The notes beneath the pieces were generated by a model that saw only the letters and a list, made by a program, of their open reading frames with translations, was not told the DNA's origin and ran no database searches. 64,000 nt of DNA. It comes from Caenorhabditis elegans (Eukaryota > Nematoda > Chromadorea > Rhabditida > Rhabditidae). The stretch spans positions 7,316,001-7,380,000 of the forward strand of contig NC_003281.10 of NCBI RefSeq assembly GCF_000002985.6, given 5' to 3'. Both the position numbers and the translations under genes were made by a program. Positions 9,119 to 50,929 of the stretch are shown here, in pieces; the stretch's first letter is position 1, and the number at the start of each line of letters is the position of its first letter.

Positions 9119-12100
9119 TCAATTTGGAAGAATCGGAGAAAGAAGTTGATTCATAGCGGGCATTGGTGAATTCACAAGGCGTGGAGATTTCTCTGGCGGA
9201 GACGCATTTGACACTGTTTCATCAGAAATTCCACGTTTCTGTGTGTTCGGTTCCATGAGGATAAGACGATTGATGGTATTACGTGCTTGCTCGGACAAGG
9301 ACTGAAAATTTAATTTTAATAATGAAATTGTTGATTTGAGAGTAAAAACATTCCTATGTTAAATTGTGTTGCGGACTTTTCTTAATTTTTCTCCGGTTTC
9401 TCTCAGAAACTGGAGAAAATTTTTTGAAAAATAAAAATGATGAAAACTTATCAAAAATCGAAGAAAACCCCGTAACAACAAGGAGTTAGAAACTACAGTA
9501 CTGCTTAAAGGCGCACTGCCCTTAATTCAAAAAAGATTGGTCGCTTCGAGACCGGGACCAATACCCGGAAAATTGGGGAAAGTTTGAAAACATAAATTTA
9601 TAAATTACCTCAATAGCCTTTTCATGGGTAGTGCCTCAAAGCGGCGAAAAGGTGGAAACATTTCTCTCCCCCAAGCTCGCTTGTGCCTGGAGTTGGTCAC
9701 CAGGTAGGAGAGAAGTAGGCTAAACGACCCAAACTGCCATACGTCCTGATCGGTAGCAGCGTCCAATGCTCCCGTTCTTGACGGCCTCCCCCAGGTCTTG
9801 GCGACGTCCGTGCTCCGGCAATCTGGCTTGGCCTAGTAAGTCAGCCCAGTAGGACACCAAAAATTACTAAAAACTCAAAAACCAAAGAAAAAACCGATGG
9901 ATCTACAACCCGGCAATCAAGTTCACTAGGGCCACGGTCTTCGCCCTTGAGGACTGCCGGGGGCCAACTACGAAAGACCACCAGATCGGAATTAAAGAAG
10001 AGCGAATTCCACCTTGGCACATGGAACACCCAATCTCTGCTCGGTCCTAGACTCGCATCAGGGGTTGAATACCTCAAAAATTCCACATGACACGTCGTCA
10101 ATCTCCAAGAGACGCGCTTCTTCTCCATGCCTTCCATCGATCAACCTGAATACCAACTGCTCTAAAAACCAACAACAAAGACTTGGGACTGGGCTTTTTC
10201 GTAAAGAAATGCCATGAACTAGAAGTCATCAACGTCTCGTGGATTGGCGGAGGCATTGCTTCTCTTGAACTGGAATTCAGAAAAGTCAAGATCATGGTTC
10301 TCAATGTCTATGCTCCAGTTTGCAAAAGTCGGTCCGAAAACGACGCAAAGCGCTTCTTCGAGAGACTCCGGGCTGAATACTTCCAACTCAGGAAATCTTT
10401 CAAAGGACCAATCGTTCTCGGAGGAGACTTCAACGCCGCCACCTCATGCTCTACCAACGATGAACTGGCTCCCTGGATCTGCGGGAACGTCTTCGGAAAT
10501 TCCAACAACCACGGAGACTTCTTCTTCAATTTCCTTGCATCCACTCGTCTCTTCCAGCTGAACTCAAGATTCCCTAAAAGACTCGCGAAAAGGTGGACAT
10601 TTGCAGGAAAGAAGGCTGTTGGGAGGACGGAAATCGACTTCTTCATCTCATCCAGGATCGATCTCGTGAAGGATGTCAGCACATTCTCCAATCTCCACAA
10701 TCTCAGTGATCACCGTCTTATCCGTTCGAGATGGGCTATTTCAGTAAAATCCGAACGCGACCACGCCTTCAAGTCAAGGAGACTGCCATCCACTGGTAAG
10801 GAGAGAGACTGTACTCTCTACGAAGACGCCATCAAAGATCTGAGTAATCACGCAACCTTCGGTTCGTACGACTCCTTCGTCAAGACTCTCCGACAAGGAT
10901 TGGTTCCGCTTCCCGCCCATAAACCGCAAAAATTCAGCCAAAGGACTAACATGATTCTGCAAGAAAGGAGATCAGTCCTTGAATCCTCCGCTCCAGATAC
11001 TGCCAAGCTCCGTAAACTGTCTCAAGAAGCAAGGAAATCGATAACGGAATATCTCACTCAAAAGTACGACTCGATTCTTGAAGCTTGCCGGAAGAAAATA
11101 TCTTCAAAAATCTTGAAGAAATCCATCCCTGCCGAAATCCCCTTGCAATATCTCGAAAGGCCTGACGGATCTCTCACGGCCAACCGCATCGAAATCCGAA
11201 AAATCGTCGAATCTCACTTCAAGGCACTATACGAGGCTCCCACGAGCTCTCCACGTCAACCACAAATCCTAATCCTCCGAGTCTTGATCCCATCCCAGCC
11301 ATTCTCAAGAGCGAAGTACGTCTGGAGATCAGAAAACTCAAGACCAAATCTGCTCCAGGTCTCGATAATGTGGATGCGGCGATGCTCAAAAATGGAGGCG
11401 ACACTGTAGTGGACTCAGTAACTGCTCTGTTCAACAACATCCTCCAACACAACAAGGTCCCTGATCTTTGGAAAATATCGGATGTCAAGCTGATCCCGAA
11501 AAAGGCTAAAGCCACTAAGATCAAAGACTTCCGACCAATCTCGCTCCTCCCAATCCTGAGCAAAATGTTCTCGAGCATTCTGACCAGAAGGCTGACACCA
11601 ACCTTGGAGAGCTACCTGGACGAAAGTCAAAACGGCTTTAGGAAAGGGAGATGCTGTGCTGACAACATTCAAAGCCTCACCATGCTCATCGAAAAGTGCA
11701 ACGAATTCCAGCTCCCACTCCTTCTTCTTTTCATCGACTACCAGACGGCTTTCGACAAAATCGGACACTCGGCTGTGGTTTCCAGCCTCGAGAAAGCAGG
11801 AGCCGATCCCGCCATGCGCAAGATGATTCAGGAAATGATGGATGGAGGACAAGCCGAGATCACAGTGCACGATAAGAAGCTCAAAGTCAACCTCTGCACC
11901 GGGGTTCGTCAAGGAGACTCAGCTTCCCCAGCTCTTTTCAGTGCTGCTCTCCAAGCTATTCTGACGGATTGCGACAACGAGTTCGCGGGAGTTGGCATCA
12001 ATGTGGAAGGTAGACACATAAGAAGACTGGAATTTGCGGATGATGTAGTCCTGATATGCTCCACACCGGGAGAAGTTCAAGAACGACTGGAAATTTTGGA

Positions 12101-13607
12101 CCGAATAAGCTCAAATTACGGACTCAAGATCAATCAGTCAAAGACTGTTCTTCTGAAGAACAAGTTTTGCCGGAGCCAAGACGTCCTTTTCAACGGATCC
12201 CCCATCATTCCCGTGCCAGGTTGTCGCTATCTGGGGCGCTGGATCGACATATCTGGCTCAATTGACGAAGAAATCTCGAGGCGAATAAGAGCTGGTTGGG
12301 GTGCTCTGGTTGGAATCAAAGAAGTCTTGAGAATCATGCCAAACAAGGAAAGAATAATCCTCTTCAAGCAAAATGTGCTACCAGCTCTCCTGTATGCTAG
12401 TGAAACTTGGACTTGTAATGCTGGATCCACGCTGAGACTCAAAAGAACTGTCTCCGGTCTCATCGACGCTGCAGAAATTCGAGGCTGGAACTTCAACTTG
12501 GATCGTTACCTCCTTGCAAAACAATCAAGATTTACAGGACACATTCTACGGAGAGATCCAAACCGATGGACAAAAATCTGCACGGAATGGGACCCGAGCC
12601 ACAACAAAAATTGGAAACGGGCCGTTGGAGGACAGAAGAAAAGATGGGCAAAGGACATCGACGAAGAATACGCAAAATTCCACCATAATTCCGCCATGTC
12701 GGGACAAGTCGTCGTTGGGAGAAGAAGACTAGGAATGCTCACACCGAAGGTCCCATGGCTGTCCATCGCACGCACCGACCGTGAAAAATGGAAAGAGTTT
12801 GTCCGCAGTTGCCTCGCAACTTGAACCCAACGGACATCAAAGTATCAAAGTAAGTATCAAAAAAGATTGGTCGCTTCGAGACCGGGACCAATACCCGGAA
12901 AATTGGGGAAAGTTTGAAAACATAAATTTATAAATTACCTCAATAGCCTTATCAAATACTTTTCTATAATTCCGAGCGAGTTGTTCAATATTAATAGTAC
13001 TTTCTTTCTTGTCGTCAAAGTACAAAACAATCATGTTTCTGTTGCAAGTCAATCGAAATCCGTCTGATGATGGATATGGATGTTCCGACATAATTCTGAA
13101 ATAATACACAGAAATTAAATTTTTTTTCCGCGCTGTGTTTACCTTTTTGCTTCACGCAACGTCTTTTGAATAATTTCAGCATTGAATCCAATGTATTGCT
13201 TCAATTTAAGCCATTTCTTATGATCCATTTCCGAACTTTTTTTGTTCATTCGATGAATTTTCTTTGTTTTTCCGTGTCGTTGTTCAAACATTTCGGCAGA
13301 ACTATTCGAATCAACTTCAAAGCATACATAGTATCTCTGATCTACTTCAGAATCATCGTCGGGCATATATCCAAATTTTTGAACGACAATTTTAAGATTT
13401 GGAAGGTTGAATCTGAATTATCTTATACACTGTTTTTTTCCAAATGAAAAAACAAGATAAGAAATAAATGTTTTACCCAATATCTCTGAGAACATCCACA
13501 ACGGTATTGATTACTTGCTCTTCTGAAGCCCGTTTCAGCGTCTCTCCTTCGATTTTCAGATTATCTAACATATAATCTTTCCATGTAGTTGAGGGATGTG
13601 GTGGCAT
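9119..13607 (-). CDS. Unrecognised 246-aa protein, last intron invaded by an RTE retrotransposon
   Basis: Four exons on the minus strand, 13477-13607, 13143-13412, 12939-13095 and 9119-9301, sum to 741 nt (246 aa plus stop) with matching phases. The protein starts MPPHPSTTWKDYMLDN, is mixed alpha/beta-looking and charged, with no signal peptide, membrane helix or catalytic motif I recognise, and ends in a Ser/Pro-rich tail (KSPRLVNSPMPAMNQLLSPI). The final intron would be about 307 nt but is expanded to 3.6 kb by the antisense retrotransposon at 9621-12856. The last 12 coding bases of exon 3 and its splice donor lie inside the duplicated target site, so an identical donor copy sits at 9609-9620. 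The gene follows the BCAS3-like gene on the same strand by 618 bp. The model is well supported; the function is unknown. Confidence 0.8.
9527..9620. repeat. Left copy of 94-bp target-site duplication
   Basis: Identical over 94 bases to 12857-12950 (offset exactly 3330). The flanks diverge at once on both sides. It contains host sequence: 12 bases of exon, a splice donor and adjoining intron. Long, variable target-site duplications are known for RTE-clade elements. Confidence 0.9.
9621..12856 (+). mobile_element. RTE-clade non-LTR retrotransposon (RTE-1-like), 3.24 kb
   Basis: An element of 3236 bp lies between two identical 94-bp direct repeats. It encodes, in plus orientation, an apurinic-type endonuclease followed by a reverse transcriptase, with no long terminal repeats. 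Its 3' end is a short tandem-repeat tail (ATCAAAGTATCAAAG-TAAGTA) rather than poly(A), typical of the RTE clade. The size is close to what I remember for C. elegans RTE-1 (about 3.3 kb), also noted for long flanking direct repeats. It is inserted antisense to the host gene, inside the last intron. Its GC content is visibly higher than the surroundings. Confidence 0.93.
9993..12824 (+). pseudogene. RTE endonuclease-reverse transcriptase reading frame, interrupted
   Basis: Endonuclease motifs appear in order: LGTWNTQSLL (from 10013), NLQETR (about 10100), NVYAPV (about 10299), LGGDFNA (about 10417) and SDHR (about 10702). The reverse transcriptase follows in another frame: FRPISLLPI (about 11532), motif A IDYQTAFDKI (about 11736), motif B GVRQGDSASPALFS (about 11903), motif C FADDVVL (about 12033), then a YLGR block and a C-terminal domain ending at TGA 12822-12824. 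The frame is broken at least three times: an in-frame TGA at 10088-10090, a frame change near 10160 just before a TAA at 10163-10165, and a second frame change near 11240-11270 between the endonuclease and reverse transcriptase parts. As read, the copy cannot make a full-length protein. Motif order and spacing otherwise look complete. Confidence 0.85.
12857..12950. repeat. Right copy of 94-bp target-site duplication
   Basis: Identical to 9527-9620. This copy is the one contiguous with the host exon (12939-13095) and carries the working splice donor, minus-strand GAG|GTAATT at 12938/12939. Confidence 0.9.
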
Positions 13608-17200: not shown

Positions 17201-19117
17201 TGTCATTATCGTATTCATTGACGGAATTGGTGGTGGTGCTGATCTCTGATGTGGTTTTCTTGGAGGTGCAGCTGGAGCATCGTCAAGTGACATATCGACA
17301 AGCATTTCTTCAGCTTGTAAAGAATCCTGTTCAACTGCTGTTTGGGACGGTGGGGATGTTGGAGGAGACGTTGTGGTCCTATTGACCACTGGAACGGCGT
17401 CCTCGTCTTCTTCCGGCGAATCCTTCACATTCTCAATTAAAAAATTATGACGGGTTATCGAGTGTTAATATTATAAAAAAATTTCAAAAAGTTTAAACGT
17501 CCTTGTTGAGAATTTAAATTTCAACCAGACTACCACATTTAGAGAGACGATTCTTTTTTCAGTTTTAAATTCTACAAAATTTTTCAAACATGAAATCAGA
17601 AACATACCGGTCTGCTACTCAAACTACTCTTATCCGAAGAGCTGAAATCCAAAAGATCCCCGCTAATGTTTTTTTCTTTTTCGATGGTCGGAGCCACCGT
17701 TTCTTCTACTTTTTCTTTGTCTTCTTCTCGATTCTTCTCTACTACTTCTTCTAAAACTTCTGGTTTTGGGTCCTTCTTGATGGGGTTTTCCTGGAAATTT
17801 ATAAATTTTGAGATGGAAATGGTTTTATGGAAATTAGTCTCGCAAAGTTAATCAAAAGACGTAAATTGGTTTTATTTTTTGTTCACACTTCAAATTGAGA
17901 AAAAACAGCATATGGGAATAGATGATGTGTTATAATTAACATTGAACGTGTACACTCAAAATAATAAAACTGCGTGGCGTGTACTGCAGAAAACCTAATA
18001 TTTAGGCCCCGCCTTTTAATCGTCCACTCACGGGGAAAAGACAAAAATAGGGGAGGGGGGGGGGGACAGCTCGCCACGCCAACAGTGAGAAAAATAGTGT
18101 GGTGCGCGGACCTCGAATGATGTCGGCGGCTGATATTGCCTGGGGTACGGCTTTTTGCGTTTTCCCCGTGAGTGGACGATTAAAAGGCGGGGTCTAAATA
18201 TTAGGTTTTCTGCAGTACACGCCACGGAGTTTTATTATTTTGAGTGTATGTGTTAGGGTCAGTGGTCACCTGATGATGAAATGAAAGTCAAACCGATAGA
18301 GGAGTGCCAATCAAGTGGAGAAGAAAAGAAAGAAAATATTGGAAAATTTCATGAAATCGTGAGTGAGACGCAGACACTGTTATGGTGCTTTCACAATGTG
18401 TTGAAATTGTGCAAAACAGGTGGAAGAAATATTAATTTTTGACAAAAAAAGTAAAATATATTTGTGTATTTTTCAAATTTACCTAGATTCAAAAATCATT
18501 TGAAATGACGTATACCTAATATTTTTTATTTTGCGACGAGAAAAAACTAAAAGTTATCTTATGTTTGATACTATGTATACATTCGTATGCAGAAGCCAAA
18601 GATACGTTAACCGGCCTTGACACGACTCGTTGCTACGGAATTTTTTATCGAATTTGTAAGAAAAACTATAAAAAATTTATGTAAACTCCACACATCGAAA
18701 GTTTGGAATTACAGTACTATTTAAAGGCTCACATTCAACAAAAACTTGTCGTGTCCAGACCCAGTACCGTTTTTTGGCACGAATTTTCGCGTCTGGGTAG
18801 TACTATAAGAAAAACATTCGTTAGCGTTCCGAATCTATTAAGATTTTATCTATCTTTGAAAATAATTGCATAGTTTCGATGTTTGCAGCGCTTTAGAAAA
18901 CGGAAAAATCCGTTAAACGGTTTTTTAAAGGAGATTTTTTGAAATTCGATTTTTTTAACTTTTAGTTTTGAAAAATCATTATGAAGTAACACTTTACCGG
19001 CTGTTCCTCTTCTGGTAGCGGTTGTGGCTGTGTTTGTTGATGTTGCTGTTGAGGGCGTTGATGATTCTTCTTGTTCTTCTTTTTCGGGCCCCCAACAGAG
19101 TTCGCGTTTGGCGGCAT
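14225..19117 (-). CDS. BCAS3-like WD-repeat protein, 1053 aa
   Basis: Seven exons: 18998-19117, 17608-17790, 16940-17431, 16413-16835, 16236-16331, 14669-16189 and 14225-14551. All are joined in phase 0 and total 3162 nt. The first two exons and the start of the third give a low-complexity N-terminus (Lys/Asn then Gln/Pro, then acidic). Residues from about 200 onward form a WD-repeat propeller. The block AHVDPISYIAFSPD...VQHLYKLNRGS...EDCRWLAITTNHATTHVFAVCPFGG matches the diagnostic human BCAS3 segment (HHLYTLHRG...DCRWVVVST..GTSHVFPINPYGG). The C-terminal exons are acidic/Ser-rich and end MDDI. In other animals BCAS3 partners PHAF1 at autophagic phagophores and affects cell migration (established family knowledge); the worm role is inference. 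Each joined exon pair has canonical sites. The first intron carries an inverted-repeat transposon. Confidence 0.9.
17953..18246. mobile_element. MITE-like element with ~90-bp terminal inverted repeats and TA target site
   Basis: The arms 17953-18043 and about 18155-18246 are near-perfect inverted repeats starting CACTCAAAATAATAAAACT and including CCCCGCCTTTTAATCGTCCA. They are flanked by TA dinucleotides (17951-17952, 18247-18248), the usual Tc1/mariner-type duplication. The ~110-bp centre holds an 11-base G run (18055-18065) and no open frame. It sits in the first intron of the BCAS3-like gene. Confidence 0.85.
18709..18803. repeat. Dispersed repeat, second copy
   Basis: Order ACAGTACTATTTAAAGGCTC, then TCGTGTCCAGACCCAGTACC, then TCGCGTCTGGGTAG, as in the copies at 8545-8662 and 57828-57945. 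It lies in intron 1 of the BCAS3-like gene. Confidence 0.7.
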
Positions 19118-45854: not shown

Positions 45855-46461
45855 TTTTTTGAAAAGCTTCTCCGTCACATTTACAGTTATCCTCTTCCTG
45901 CCTTATTTGATTTATGTGTATTATTCTTGGGGTTTGTGCTTTGTTATTTTTTTTGGTTCAAATTTATTCTCTACGTATTCATTGTGTCAAAATGACACGA
46001 CATCACTTCCAAACATCCCATCCCGATTTTATGTAGGTTCCTGTTTAGTTATTCATTAAACTTGTTAATAAGGTTCATCAAAGTTTATTTAGAAATTTAG
46101 ATGCTTTTATGATAAAATTTTTAATTATTTAATACAGAAAACACACAAAATTAAATGGCAACATGACGTGAAATAGTGATCTAAATAGCTGGAGAACAAT
46201 TAATTTTTGAAACGAAATGCAAACATTTAATTTCCACTAAATAGTTTGAGTATTATTCGTACGTAAATGAAAACAAATTTTGATGGAGATTGACTTCAAA
46301 AATGACTGGAGCTTAAAAATTGACATGAAATCCTGGCAATGTTGTGGGAAGAGAATCTGCAGAAGGTTACTTTAATATTTTGAAAAGTGTCTATCATGAA
46401 AGATGCTTATCGCATTATGGAGAGCTTCCAATGTATATATAATGTAGTCACATATTCTATT
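45855..46461. other. Intergenic region between hmgr-1 and the palindrome
   Basis: AT-rich, no gene seen. An AATTAAAC/TTAATAAGG signal lies about 200 bp after the hmgr-1 stop. From about 46340 it contains degraded continuation of the palindrome arm (TGCAGAAGGTTACTTTAATA and beyond, matching the far side near 49470 with mismatches and indels). Confidence 0.5.
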
Positions 46462-46618
46462 TATATGAAAAATAAGTTTATTTTTTAACGTTTATTATAA
46501 AAAACAGTTTTTAAAATTATTCAAAAAAGTACATGAAAATAAGTAGTGGAATGAATTGAGAACATTGAATACTACTTTTGAAAGAATAATTATAAAATAA
46601 GAATGAAAAATGAGATAA

Positions 46619-47464
46619 TTAACATCGACCAAATCTGCGTTCAAATGGATGTTGTCTCTTGAATCCATGATGTCCGAATCCATGACCAAATCCATGATGA
46701 TGACCACCGAATCCATGGAATGCTCCAAATGGATGATGATGTCTATGGAAATTGAATCCATGATGATCCATTCCTCGTCTTCCAAATGGTCTTCCGAATC
46801 CTCCAGTTGGACCTTCAAATTCTTCTCTTCCACAAGGTGTTCCAAATGATCCTAATGGATGTCTTTTGAATTCTTCTCCTTCACGACATGGTCTTCTTCC
46901 AATTGGTGATGCTGATCTTGCACGTCTTCCACCAAAACAGTGACGTCTTTTGAATTCTGGATGTCCATGGGATTCTTGGAATCTTTTCCACATGAGCTTC
47001 TTCATTTGATGTCTCTTGTGATGATCATGGAAATTTGAACGACTTCTGCTTCGAGATCTTGAACGATCAAATCCACGACTTCTGGATCTATCACGTCTTC
47101 CACAATGACGACGATGTGGAGCTACTTCAGGAGCATCAGCAATAATGACATCTTCATCTCCAGAATCAGAAGAATCAGATGAAGAATCCGATGAATCAGA
47201 ATCAGCAATCACAAAAATAGAAGCAGAATCTCTGTTAGCCATCTTTTTCAGAACTCTCTGAGCATTCTGAGACATTGAAATCAAATTTCCTTTGTCATTT
47301 TTCCAGAAAACAACATTGAAATTGAGTCCGAGTTCTCCCAATTTCAACTCTAATTTTTCAATTAGTTGTTGCAAATTGTAATATTCAATTGAAATTTGTT
47401 CAGTTGCTCCAGGAGCAAAATAAAGTTTGAAAAGAATTGAATTGGTTGCAGTTGTAGTTTTCAT
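46619..47464 (-). CDS. numr-1/numr-2: NUMR metal-responsive nuclear protein, left palindrome copy, 281 aa
   Basis: Single exon. Residues 1-85 form an alpha/beta domain resembling a PB1-type fold (ILFKLYFAP ... LQQLIEKLELKL ... VVFWKNDKGNLISM). Next is an acidic Ser/Asp run (about 88-105). An Arg/Ser segment follows (RDRSRSRGFDRSRSRSRSRS), and the C-terminal third is rich in Gly, His, Phe and Arg (FGGHHHGFGHGFGHHGFKR), plausibly metal-binding. This fits the C. elegans numr-1/numr-2 genes, reported as nearly identical, nuclear and induced by cadmium and other metals. I cannot tell which of the two this copy is. It is transcribed outward from the palindrome centre with a TATA box (47501-47507) about 37 bp before the ATG. 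Confidence 0.88.
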   Translation of the reverse strand: MKTTTATNSILFKLYFAPGATEQISIEYYNLQQLIEKLELKLGELGLNFNVVFWKNDKGNLISMSQNAQRVLKKMANRDSASIFVIADSDSSDSSSDSSDSGDEDVIIADAPEVAPHRRHCGRRDRSRSRGFDRSRSRSRSRSNFHDHHKRHQMKKLMWKRFQESHGHPEFKRRHCFGGRRARSASPIGRRPCREGEEFKRHPLGSFGTPCGREEFEGPTGGFGRPFGRRGMDHHGFNFHRHHHPFGAFHGFGGHHHGFGHGFGHHGFKRQHPFERRFGRC

Positions 47465-47500
47465 TTTTCAGAATGATTTTCTCTATTCTAAATTTCCAAT

Positions 47501-47507
47501 TTTTATA
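47501..47507 (-). promoter_or_regulatory. TATA box of left numr copy
   Basis: Minus-strand GGTATAAAAATTGG with TATAAAA centred about 40 bp upstream of the ATG. It is mirrored exactly at 48342-48348. Confidence 0.65.
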
Positions 47508-48341
47508 CCTCCATTCTTAAGCTCCGCCTACCAGCTGTCCCTGAACTATTTCGAAATTGTTTAATGTGTCTGTGTCTATCGAAATAATACGAAAATGTAC
47601 TGTCATCACTGTCTGCGTCTCGAATTGGCGCTGATCTTTTGATATTCATTGATGAATGAGACTAGAGACATGGATGTATTGCACAAACCACAGAAAGAGC
47701 ACAAAGTCTTTGAATTTCAGATGATCTGAAATACATCGACATCAATAGAGATTTACTTCTTAGGTGACATTATGCTTGGTGATTTCATTAGAAATATTGA
47801 ACATTCATCTAACGAATTGGGATCTGCAAACTCAATGTTTCAGAAAACGTGTTCATTTCAAAAAGTGATCGAAAAATAGTTTTTTTCTGTAAAAATTTCG
47901 CTCTCCAGATTTCAGACCCTAATCAGATTGAAAACATAGGCAGGCACTCAGTCCGGGTTACGGAAAAAACTATTTTTCGATCGCTTTTTGAAATGAACAC
48001 GTTTTCTGAAAAATTGGGTTTGCAGATCCCAATTTGTTAGATGAATGTTCAATATTTCTAATGAAATCACCAAACATTATGTCACCTAAGAAGTAAATCT
48101 CTATTGATGTCGATGTATTTCAGATCATCTGAAATTCAAAGACTTTGTGCTCTTTCTGTGGTTTGTGCAATACATCCATGTCTCTAGTCTCATTCATCAA
48201 TGAATATCAAAAGATCAGCGCCAATTCGAGACGCAGACAGTGATGACAGTACATTTTCGTATTATTTCGATAGACACAGACACATTAAACAATTTCGAAA
48301 TAGTTCAGGGACAGCTGGTAGGCGGAGCTTAAGAATGGAGG

Positions 48342-48348
48342 TATAAAA
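48342..48348 (+). promoter_or_regulatory. TATA box of right numr copy
   Basis: TATAAAA within GGTATAAAAATTGG, 37 bp before the ATG at 48385. Such a strong TATA box suits an inducible stress gene. Confidence 0.65.
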
Positions 48349-48384
48349 ATTGGAAATTTAGAATAGAGAAAATCATTCTGAAAA

Positions 48385-49230
48385 ATGAAAACTACAACTG
48401 CAACCAATTCAATTCTTTTCAAACTTTATTTTGCTCCTGGAGCAACTGAACAAATTTCAATTGAATATTACAATTTGCAACAACTAATTGAAAAATTAGA
48501 GTTGAAATTGGGAGAACTCGGACTCAATTTCAATGTTGTTTTCTGGAAAAATGACAAAGGAAATTTGATTTCAATGTCTCAGAATGCTCAGAGAGTTCTG
48601 AAAAAGATGGCTAACAGAGATTCTGCTTCTATTTTTGTGATTGCTGATTCTGATTCATCGGATTCTTCATCTGATTCTTCTGATTCTGGAGATGAAGATG
48701 TCATTATTGCTGATGCTCCTGAAGTAGCTCCACATCGTCGTCATTGTGGAAGACGTGATAGATCCAGAAGTCGTGGATTTGATCGTTCAAGATCTCGAAG
48801 CAGAAGTCGTTCAAATTTCCATGATCATCACAAGAGACATCAAATGAAGAAGCTCATGTGGAAAAGATTCCAAGAATCCCATGGACATCCAGAATTCAAA
48901 AGACGTCACTGTTTTGGTGGAAGACGTGCAAGATCAGCATCACCAATTGGAAGAAGACCATGTCGTGAAGGAGAAGAATTCAAAAGACATCCATTAGGAT
49001 CATTTGGAACACCTTGTGGAAGAGAAGAATTTGAAGGTCCAACTGGAGGATTCGGAAGACCATTTGGAAGACGAGGAATGGATCATCATGGATTCAATTT
49101 CCATAGACATCATCATCCATTTGGAGCATTCCATGGATTCGGTGGTCATCATCATGGATTTGGTCATGGATTCGGACATCATGGATTCAAGAGACAACAT
49201 CCATTTGAACGCAGATTTGGTCGATGTTAA
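48385..49230 (+). CDS. numr-1/numr-2: NUMR metal-responsive nuclear protein, right palindrome copy, 281 aa
   Basis: Encodes exactly the same 281 residues as the left copy. Alternative frames on both strands are also identical between the copies, showing nucleotide identity across the gene. Domain order is as for the left copy: PB1-like N-terminus, Ser/Asp acidic run, RS segment, Gly/His/Phe-rich tail ending RRFGRC. The paired genes are head-to-head and about 920 bp apart. The intervening DNA is itself palindromic, so each gene has its own copy of the same promoter. Confidence 0.88.
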   Translation: MKTTTATNSILFKLYFAPGATEQISIEYYNLQQLIEKLELKLGELGLNFNVVFWKNDKGNLISMSQNAQRVLKKMANRDSASIFVIADSDSSDSSSDSSDSGDEDVIIADAPEVAPHRRHCGRRDRSRSRGFDRSRSRSRSRSNFHDHHKRHQMKKLMWKRFQESHGHPEFKRRHCFGGRRARSASPIGRRPCREGEEFKRHPLGSFGTPCGREEFEGPTGGFGRPFGRRGMDHHGFNFHRHHHPFGAFHGFGGHHHGFGHGFGHHGFKRQHPFERRFGRC

Positions 49231-49387
49231 TTATCTCATTTTTCATTCTTATTTTATAATTATTCTTTCAAAAGTAGTATTCAATGTTCTCAATTCATTC
49301 CACTACTTATTTTCATGTACTTTTTTGAATAATTTTAAAAACTGTTTTTTATAATAAACGTTAAAAAATAAACTTATTTTTCATATA

Positions 49388-49901
49388 AATAGAATGTACA
49401 TTATATATATACATTGGAATCTCTCAATAATGTGATGAGCATCTAGACACTTTTCAAAATATTACAGTAACCTTCTGCATATTCACTTCCAACAACATTG
49501 CTAGACGTCTATTGATTTTTAAGTTGAAATGTTAGTAGAATAGTATTTCAACTAGAGTGGTCATTCAATAAAAAAAAAGAAGTCTTCAATTCCGCAGAAC
49601 GGAACGTCCTCAACTTTTTCTGAACTATTTTCAGTTTTCTAGAGCGTCTTTCTGAAAGCATTATCTCTGGCAGCCGAATCTTCACCGTTGTCTGGAAGCG
49701 GATGTCAAATATATACTCTCGCTTTTGGAAGTCTGACGTCACACACAATTTTGAGTGTAAAATTCCACGTATTTCAGAGATCAAACGAGAAAAGAACACT
49801 TTCAGCTCCAGTCATTTATAAATTTACATTCACATCATAACTTGTTTCAATTCAAGCTATTCATATGACCTTCTATAGAAATTAGGAAATGTGTAGTGGC
49901 A
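49388..49901. other. Intergenic region right of the palindrome
   Basis: No gene seen. It contains degraded palindrome homology to about 49495, then AT-rich DNA and a short hydrophobic open frame without start or splice support. Confidence 0.45.
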
Positions 49902-50407
49902 ATGCCGTGGAATACAAATAATCGAAATTCCGTCAAAAATTCGTTCATTTCTCCTCCAAGTATGCCAGAATACGAGCAGCTTCCCAATTTCCAGGTAACC
50001 GATATTAGTGGCTTAATTGAGTTTTCAATTTATAATGAGAAACGTTACTAATTTTACAATCAAATTCCGTACAATTACAGAATGTCCAACCATTCAATGC
50101 TTCTGAAACTTCTGAAATTATCCGATTCTTACGGATCCAATTTCCAATAAACGATTTGACATGTGGTCTTTTGGAAAACCTCTCCGACTATAGAAAACGT
50201 ATGTTTTCAAAAAAAAACTTTATTTTCAAAAATTAATTTATTTCAGCCATTTCCATGAATCAGGTCACCACTTTGCGATTCTGTCAAACCATTGAATTTT
50301 GTGTTGAAAATTCAGTATTTGTCCTTGTCACTCGATACATTGAAATCAAAACCTTCAATCGACGAATTGTGCCAAAAAAGACAGTCAAAGTCATTCCGTC
50401 CTGTTGA
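49902..50407 (+). CDS. Small unrecognised protein, 123 aa
   Basis: Three exons, 49902-49994, 50081-50198 and 50247-50407, sum to 372 nt with canonical sites (CAG|GTAACC, TTACAG, C|GTATGT, TTTCAG). The protein begins MPWNTNNRNSVKNS and has no hydrophobic helix. The last third looks like beta strands (VTTLRFCQTIEFCVENSVFV...TRYIEIKTFNRRIV). An AATAAA-like signal follows about 70 bp after the stop. It lies in the accessory stretch next to the numr palindrome. I see no family resemblance; exon phasing and splice sites are the main support. Confidence 0.62.
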
Positions 50408-50929
50408 CATGTATCTGAACAATTACAATCCAATATTGAAGATCAAATAATTAAACTTTTATCATGAAAGCGCCTAAATAAACTTTGATGTATCTTATTA
50501 ACAATAGTCTAATGAATAACTAAGCAAGAACCTACATAATCATTGTTACCTCCTCAAAATCCTTTTTGAGCACTTGTTCATTTGCCTCCCGTGTCTTGTT
50601 TGTTGTGAACATTATTCCACCACCAGCTTGTCGGACCTAGGCATATTCTGCAGTGAGTAGTAATTTTGGCGTGTAAATCCTCATGCATTGAGACGATGAA
50701 CTTCATTTTTCAAACATCATGTGAGGTACAACCATTTCCAGACAGAAATCCGCAAACCAAAGAGTATAATTACGTTAACGAGGAGCGGGTTACTGTAGTA
50801 TTTAAAGGTACATTCATATTTTTCCAATTTAGAATTGAAAATATTTTGAGCGTGGAAGAGCGGACACCGTATTGAAACCTTGAATTGCAAAAACCTTGAA
50901 TTGTAAAAAAAAGGCGAGAAACCTAAACA
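50408..50929. other. Intergenic region, no gene seen
   Basis: About 520 bp of AT-rich DNA with short unsupported open frames. It includes a small motif block AGCGGGTTACTGTAGTATTT resembling other dispersed repeats in the window. Confidence 0.4.

Follow-up and report, generated by a model that had tools for sequence, protein, structure and literature searches.

An inverted pair of numr genes in Caenorhabditis elegans lies in a palindrome with a mismatch-free core and diverged edges

Introduction

Palindromes carrying gene pairs have been described in C. elegans by Zhao et al. 2007, passages of which report them at the F44E5.4/F44E5.5, hsp-16, and F42F12 pairs, with counterparts in C. briggsae and C. 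remanei; the F44E5.4/F44E5.5 palindrome is conserved in two related species, while the hsp-16 one is decayed in C. briggsae (PMC1803023). Gene conversion is named there as one possible mechanism (PMC1803023), and passages of two papers establish gene conversion between adjacent inverted paralogs in this genus, including hsp-16 and hsp70 (PMC3966223; PMC1803023). Across duplicate pairs of C. elegans, published conversion tracts have a mean of 117 bp and a range of 12-2958 (PMC3966223). The words numr and F08F8 are absent from the main text of Zhao et al. 2007 (PMC1803023). According to sections of another paper, numr-1 and numr-2 are 100% identical and share the same promoter, and their induction by cadmium and dependence upon HSF-1 are published as well (PMC6631800). 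In the literature searched, no description of the conversion profile of the numr pair was found, and no paper there treated numr-1 together with gene conversion, although an account of the inverted repeat may already be given in the founding paper (Tvermoes 2010); the sole match for numr-1 together with palindrome came from the title of a cited work about a zinc element, and numr-1 was absent among the matches listed for the copy-number literature. Here, we describe the numr palindrome and compare it with its closest relatives.

Results

The window considered here is a single stretch of 64,000 nucleotides (64 kb) of the C. elegans genome, at 7316001-7380000 of contig 3, evidently chromosome III, and the evidence comprises the two numr palindrome arms together with control loci within one assembly. 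A left arm (46454..47885) matches a right arm (47964..49395) in inverted orientation over 1432 bp, which leaves a spacer of 78 bp (47886..47963). Allowing small gapped matches shortens this to 65-74 bp: the gapped alignment places the inner arm ends at 47887/47962 with 74 bp between them, and four further matched bases reduce this to 65 bp. Each arm carries one complete, intronless ORF of 281 codons, located at 46619..47464 on the minus strand and at 48385..49230 on the plus strand, such that the two genes read outward, and the DNA of the two ORFs is identical between the arms. The gene pair is evidently the published C. elegans numr-1/numr-2. RNAi and short reads cannot distinguish one from the other. 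A TATA box (TATAAAA) is present at 48342..48348 of the right copy (plus strand) and mirrored at 47501..47507 of the left copy (minus strand), while AATAAA occurs at 49353 and 49367 of the right arm and is mirrored at 46491 and 46477 of the left arm. Thus, a sequence-only reading of this DNA, which had claimed a palindrome with arms of about 1.4 kb around a short spacer and two identical outward genes each having its own TATA box and 3' end, was accurate, except that the palindrome extends a few bases beyond the 46462-49387 that it gave. These arms are by far the longest among the 5 inverted repeats of at least 60 nt listed for the window, the runner-up having 97 nt. When the assembly itself was searched (100,286,401 bases in 7 contigs), both the arm sequence and the NUMR protein were found at 2 places. 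Elsewhere in the window, 17951-18248 contains two inverted arms of 97 nt (96%) separated by 104 nt, perhaps a small hairpin element, and 9527-9624 and 12857-12954 form a direct repeat of 98 nt that is 99% identical, 3330 bp apart.

By sequence, each numr gene has a separate mirrored promoter with its own TATA box. Motif patterns were used to scan 47925-48384, and these simple patterns, which like the stretch itself may be too narrow, detected no metal-response, GATA, SKN-1, DAF-16, or CRE-like sites and no exact three-unit heat-shock element. A single two-unit GAAnnTTC was present in the same stretch, compared with 0.27 expected. Since the pattern scan returned no exact heat-shock element, the cis basis of the HSF-1 dependence is not evident. 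Its negative result for DAF-16 and SKN-1 also conflicts with a section of a review, which places putative sites for both factors upstream of both numr genes (PMC3184976). Each promoter further includes a near-palindrome with 17-nt arms (82%) and 1 nt between them, at 47706-47740 and 48109-48143.

The identity of the arms is far from uniform along their length. We report the counts from the stricter of two alignments, which pairs 46333-47885 with 47964-49504 over 1555 columns and includes 16 mismatches and 16 gap columns; looser settings raised the inner mismatches to 7 and the outer count as well. A core of 1317 bp (46454..47770 in the left copy and 48079..49395 in the right) is free of mismatches. 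It includes 306 bp ahead of the ATG and 165 bp beyond the stop codon; it begins 263 bp before the TATA box and stops 23 bp beyond the last AATAAA. On the inner side of the core, the arm tips include 6 mismatches in 115 bp, whereas the outer flanks (46333..46453 paired with 49396..49504) include 10 mismatches in 107 ungapped columns, plus gaps. Over the 222 columns of tips and outer flanks together, 16 mismatches amount to a divergence of ~7%, and this edge divergence rests on those 16 mismatches only. When the 16 mismatches were placed at random 200,000 times, a clear run of 1317 columns never arose, and the same was true of a clear run of 471 columns when placements were confined to noncoding columns. 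None of the 16 mismatches falls within the 471 noncoding positions of the core, for which P ~8e-9 under an even spread over noncoding columns, with a core boundary picked after seeing the data. Likewise, none of the 113 four-fold sites of the numr gene differs between the copies, because the two genes are identical. The numr palindrome thus has an identity step, i.e. a homogenized tract between diverged homologous stretches, as expected of arm-to-arm conversion. With a mutation rate of 2.3e-9 per site per generation, the edges would correspond to ~16 million generations, compared with no more than ~1.1 million for the core, both being orders of magnitude only.

Homology extends beyond the aligned arms. 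An outermost inverted block at 46029..46133 has its mirror partner at 50442..50539, with an alignment score of 129; the maximum was 82 among 200 shuffles and 90 among 20 real stretches. Further mirror matches beyond 46029/50539 were at the null level. The block lies 937 bp from the arm on the right and 199 bp from it on the left, and this difference of ~740 bp would reflect either a loss on the left or a gain on the right. When searched against the genome, the left flank matched at three places, namely itself, the right outer flank, and the right block at 50442-50539; being confined to these three local places, the left flank does not look like a dispersed repeat. Separately, 50354-50480 is ~81-84% similar to contig 1 at 9317438-9317570, ~3 kb from an HSP70 match. 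The contig 1 stretch aligned to the right flank with a score of 187, compared with 67 in 60 shuffles, and to the left flank with a score of 68, compared with 77 in 200 shuffles, yet blastn matched 46077-46130 to this contig 1 stretch at E 1.6e-7.

The N-terminal domain of NUMR (48385-48690 and its mirror copy) has been published as RRM-like. In Pfam, NUMR matches SL4P and not PB1, and there is no RRM among its 4 Pfam matches up to E 10. The order of elements in an RRM is beta-alpha-beta-beta-alpha-beta, and that of a PB1 fold is beta-beta-alpha-beta-beta-alpha-beta; the modeled NUMR N-terminus begins strand-strand-helix at low confidence, and this low-confidence model suggests a domain that may resemble the PB1 fold. 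Structure comparisons of the model had no RRM among the 50 matches listed, which excludes nothing, and sequence searches of solved structures with NUMR yielded unrelated weak matches only. Nothing was found on numr-1 together with a PB1 domain in the literature searched. If a PB1-like fold is correct, work on NUMR action would be redirected from direct RNA binding to self-association. An ORF of 491 codons on contig 4 (L008:3073-4545, minus strand) also has an SL4P domain; it further contains stretches rich in serine/arginine and in histidine/glycine, and it matches PB1 weakly, at 15.7 bits where the cut-off is 23.6. BLASTP of NUMR against this ORF was weak as well (19/61 identical, E 0.21), and common membership of the SL4P family makes it a possible distant relative of NUMR.

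Discussion

An identity step such as the one at numr usually results from arm-to-arm gene conversion, and we consider it likely that the palindrome arose as an old inverted duplication whose core was homogenized later by conversion between the arms. The duplication would have created the numr-1/numr-2 pair, and conversion would later have equalized the transcription units and proximal promoters (1317 bp), while the inner tips, spacer, and outer flanks drifted apart. The outcome would be a doubled stress gene with identical regulation, in which each copy retains a complete promoter and reads outward. We infer conversion as the cause of the identical core, and the benefit of the pair would presumably be extra dosage. 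The core is far above the mean tract length of 117 bp and within the published range of 12-2958, so several events may be needed (PMC3966223).

A recent inverted duplication alone, in which the arms are identical simply because they are young, would readily account for 1317 bp without a mismatch, but it leaves unexplained the ~7% divergence and gaps of the tips and flanks (16/222 columns) and a third homologous block further out. Since a single age cannot produce an identical core as well as diverged edges and an outer block, we regard this explanation as unlikely. The sequence-only reading had offered recent origin, selection for dosage, and upkeep by conversion as options, and conversion is favored over simple recent origin by the contrast between a mismatch-free core and diverged edges. 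Purifying selection alone could also be proposed to have prevented the genes and promoters of an old pair from diverging, given that the identical part coincides with the promoter, gene, and 3' end. However, the absence of any difference at 113 four-fold and 471 noncoding positions exceeds what functional selection normally gives, which makes it very unlikely that selection acted alone.

That the functional element is the palindrome as such, acting through a cruciform or by yielding hairpin RNA, is similarly most improbable. Zhao et al. do raise, in a passage of their paper, that structure rather than sequence is possibly what matters (PMC1803023), and a 310-nt RNA of the numr centre, were it transcribed, is predicted to fold strongly (-181.6 kcal/mol versus -59.2 for shuffles), as any inverted repeat would, since this follows from the arms. 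Against this, divergence extends to the innermost arm tips, the opposite of what keeping a structure would entail, and both numr genes are transcribed away from the centre. The latter point also reverses the geometry of an earlier suggestion that read-through toward the centre could generate hairpin RNA: with outward transcription, read-through exits the palindrome, on the left toward an HMG-CoA reductase gene that adjoins the pair and is convergent with the left numr, and a hairpin RNA would need a separate transcript starting inward. Finally, long near-perfect palindromes can be mis-assembled, but a single gene doubled in the assembly, which the sequence-only reading had named as its own refutation, is scarcely credible given that the outer flanks of the two copies are not the same, that their inner tips show differences, and that a deletion removing both numr genes has been made and genotyped, as stated in part of a published study (PMC7354062).

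An old duplication with a later converted core therefore remains our preferred account of the numr palindrome. A more specific version, in which conversion tied to their own transcription keeps the HSF-1-driven stress genes of C. elegans identical, is prompted by where the perfect runs of numr and the hsp70 pair begin and end, but it seems improbable to us; if true, stress transcription in germ cells would set where conversion acts. No account treating the hsp-70 palindrome, conversion, and HSF-1 together was found in the literature searched. Because the edges of the homogenized tract are clear on both sides, numr offers a small locus for studying the persistence of palindromes and the reach of conversion.

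The genes at the numr locus already have names, and their palindrome belongs to a known kind, of which it is one more example. With its near-identical inverted arms and adjacent paralogs in opposite orientation, it resembles the pairs described by Zhao et al. 2007. For comparison, we profiled an hsp70 pair and the hsp-16 locus in the same way as numr, both picked as known loci rather than by a genome-wide survey. The hsp70 pair (contig 2, L030) is, by inference, the F44E5.4/F44E5.5 palindrome described in passages of Zhao et al. (PMC1803023), and it similarly consists of adjacent divergent stress genes with an identical core and mismatched inner tips and outer edges, having a perfect run of 2209 bp, 4 mismatches on the inner side, and 8 on the outer side. 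Its core is longer than that of numr (1317 bp), and its perfect run starts 13 bp before a TATAAA. This run stops 65 bp past the stop codon without reaching the AATAAA, a signal beyond which the numr run extends. The hsp-16 locus (T27E4, contig 5, L019) is likewise a stress-gene palindrome, with 1881 perfect bp and a spacer of 414 bp, the same as given in a passage of the earlier paper (PMC1803023). Unlike numr, it has four genes, two per arm, and no diverged edges inside its aligned arms; with one mismatch in 1891 columns and no diverged edges, it does not show the identity step.

The palindromes of the Y chromosome are much longer and lie on a chromosome without a partner, whereas the numr palindrome has arms of 1.4 kb and lies on an autosome. 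The human and ape Y-chromosome palindromes are named by Zhao et al. (PMC1803023) and among the references of a second paper (PMC3966223). What they have in common with the arrangement proposed for numr is inverted arms that carry genes and stay alike through conversion between them. With numr, the large palindromes of the worm include a stress-inducible pair in addition to those at hsp-16 and hsp70.
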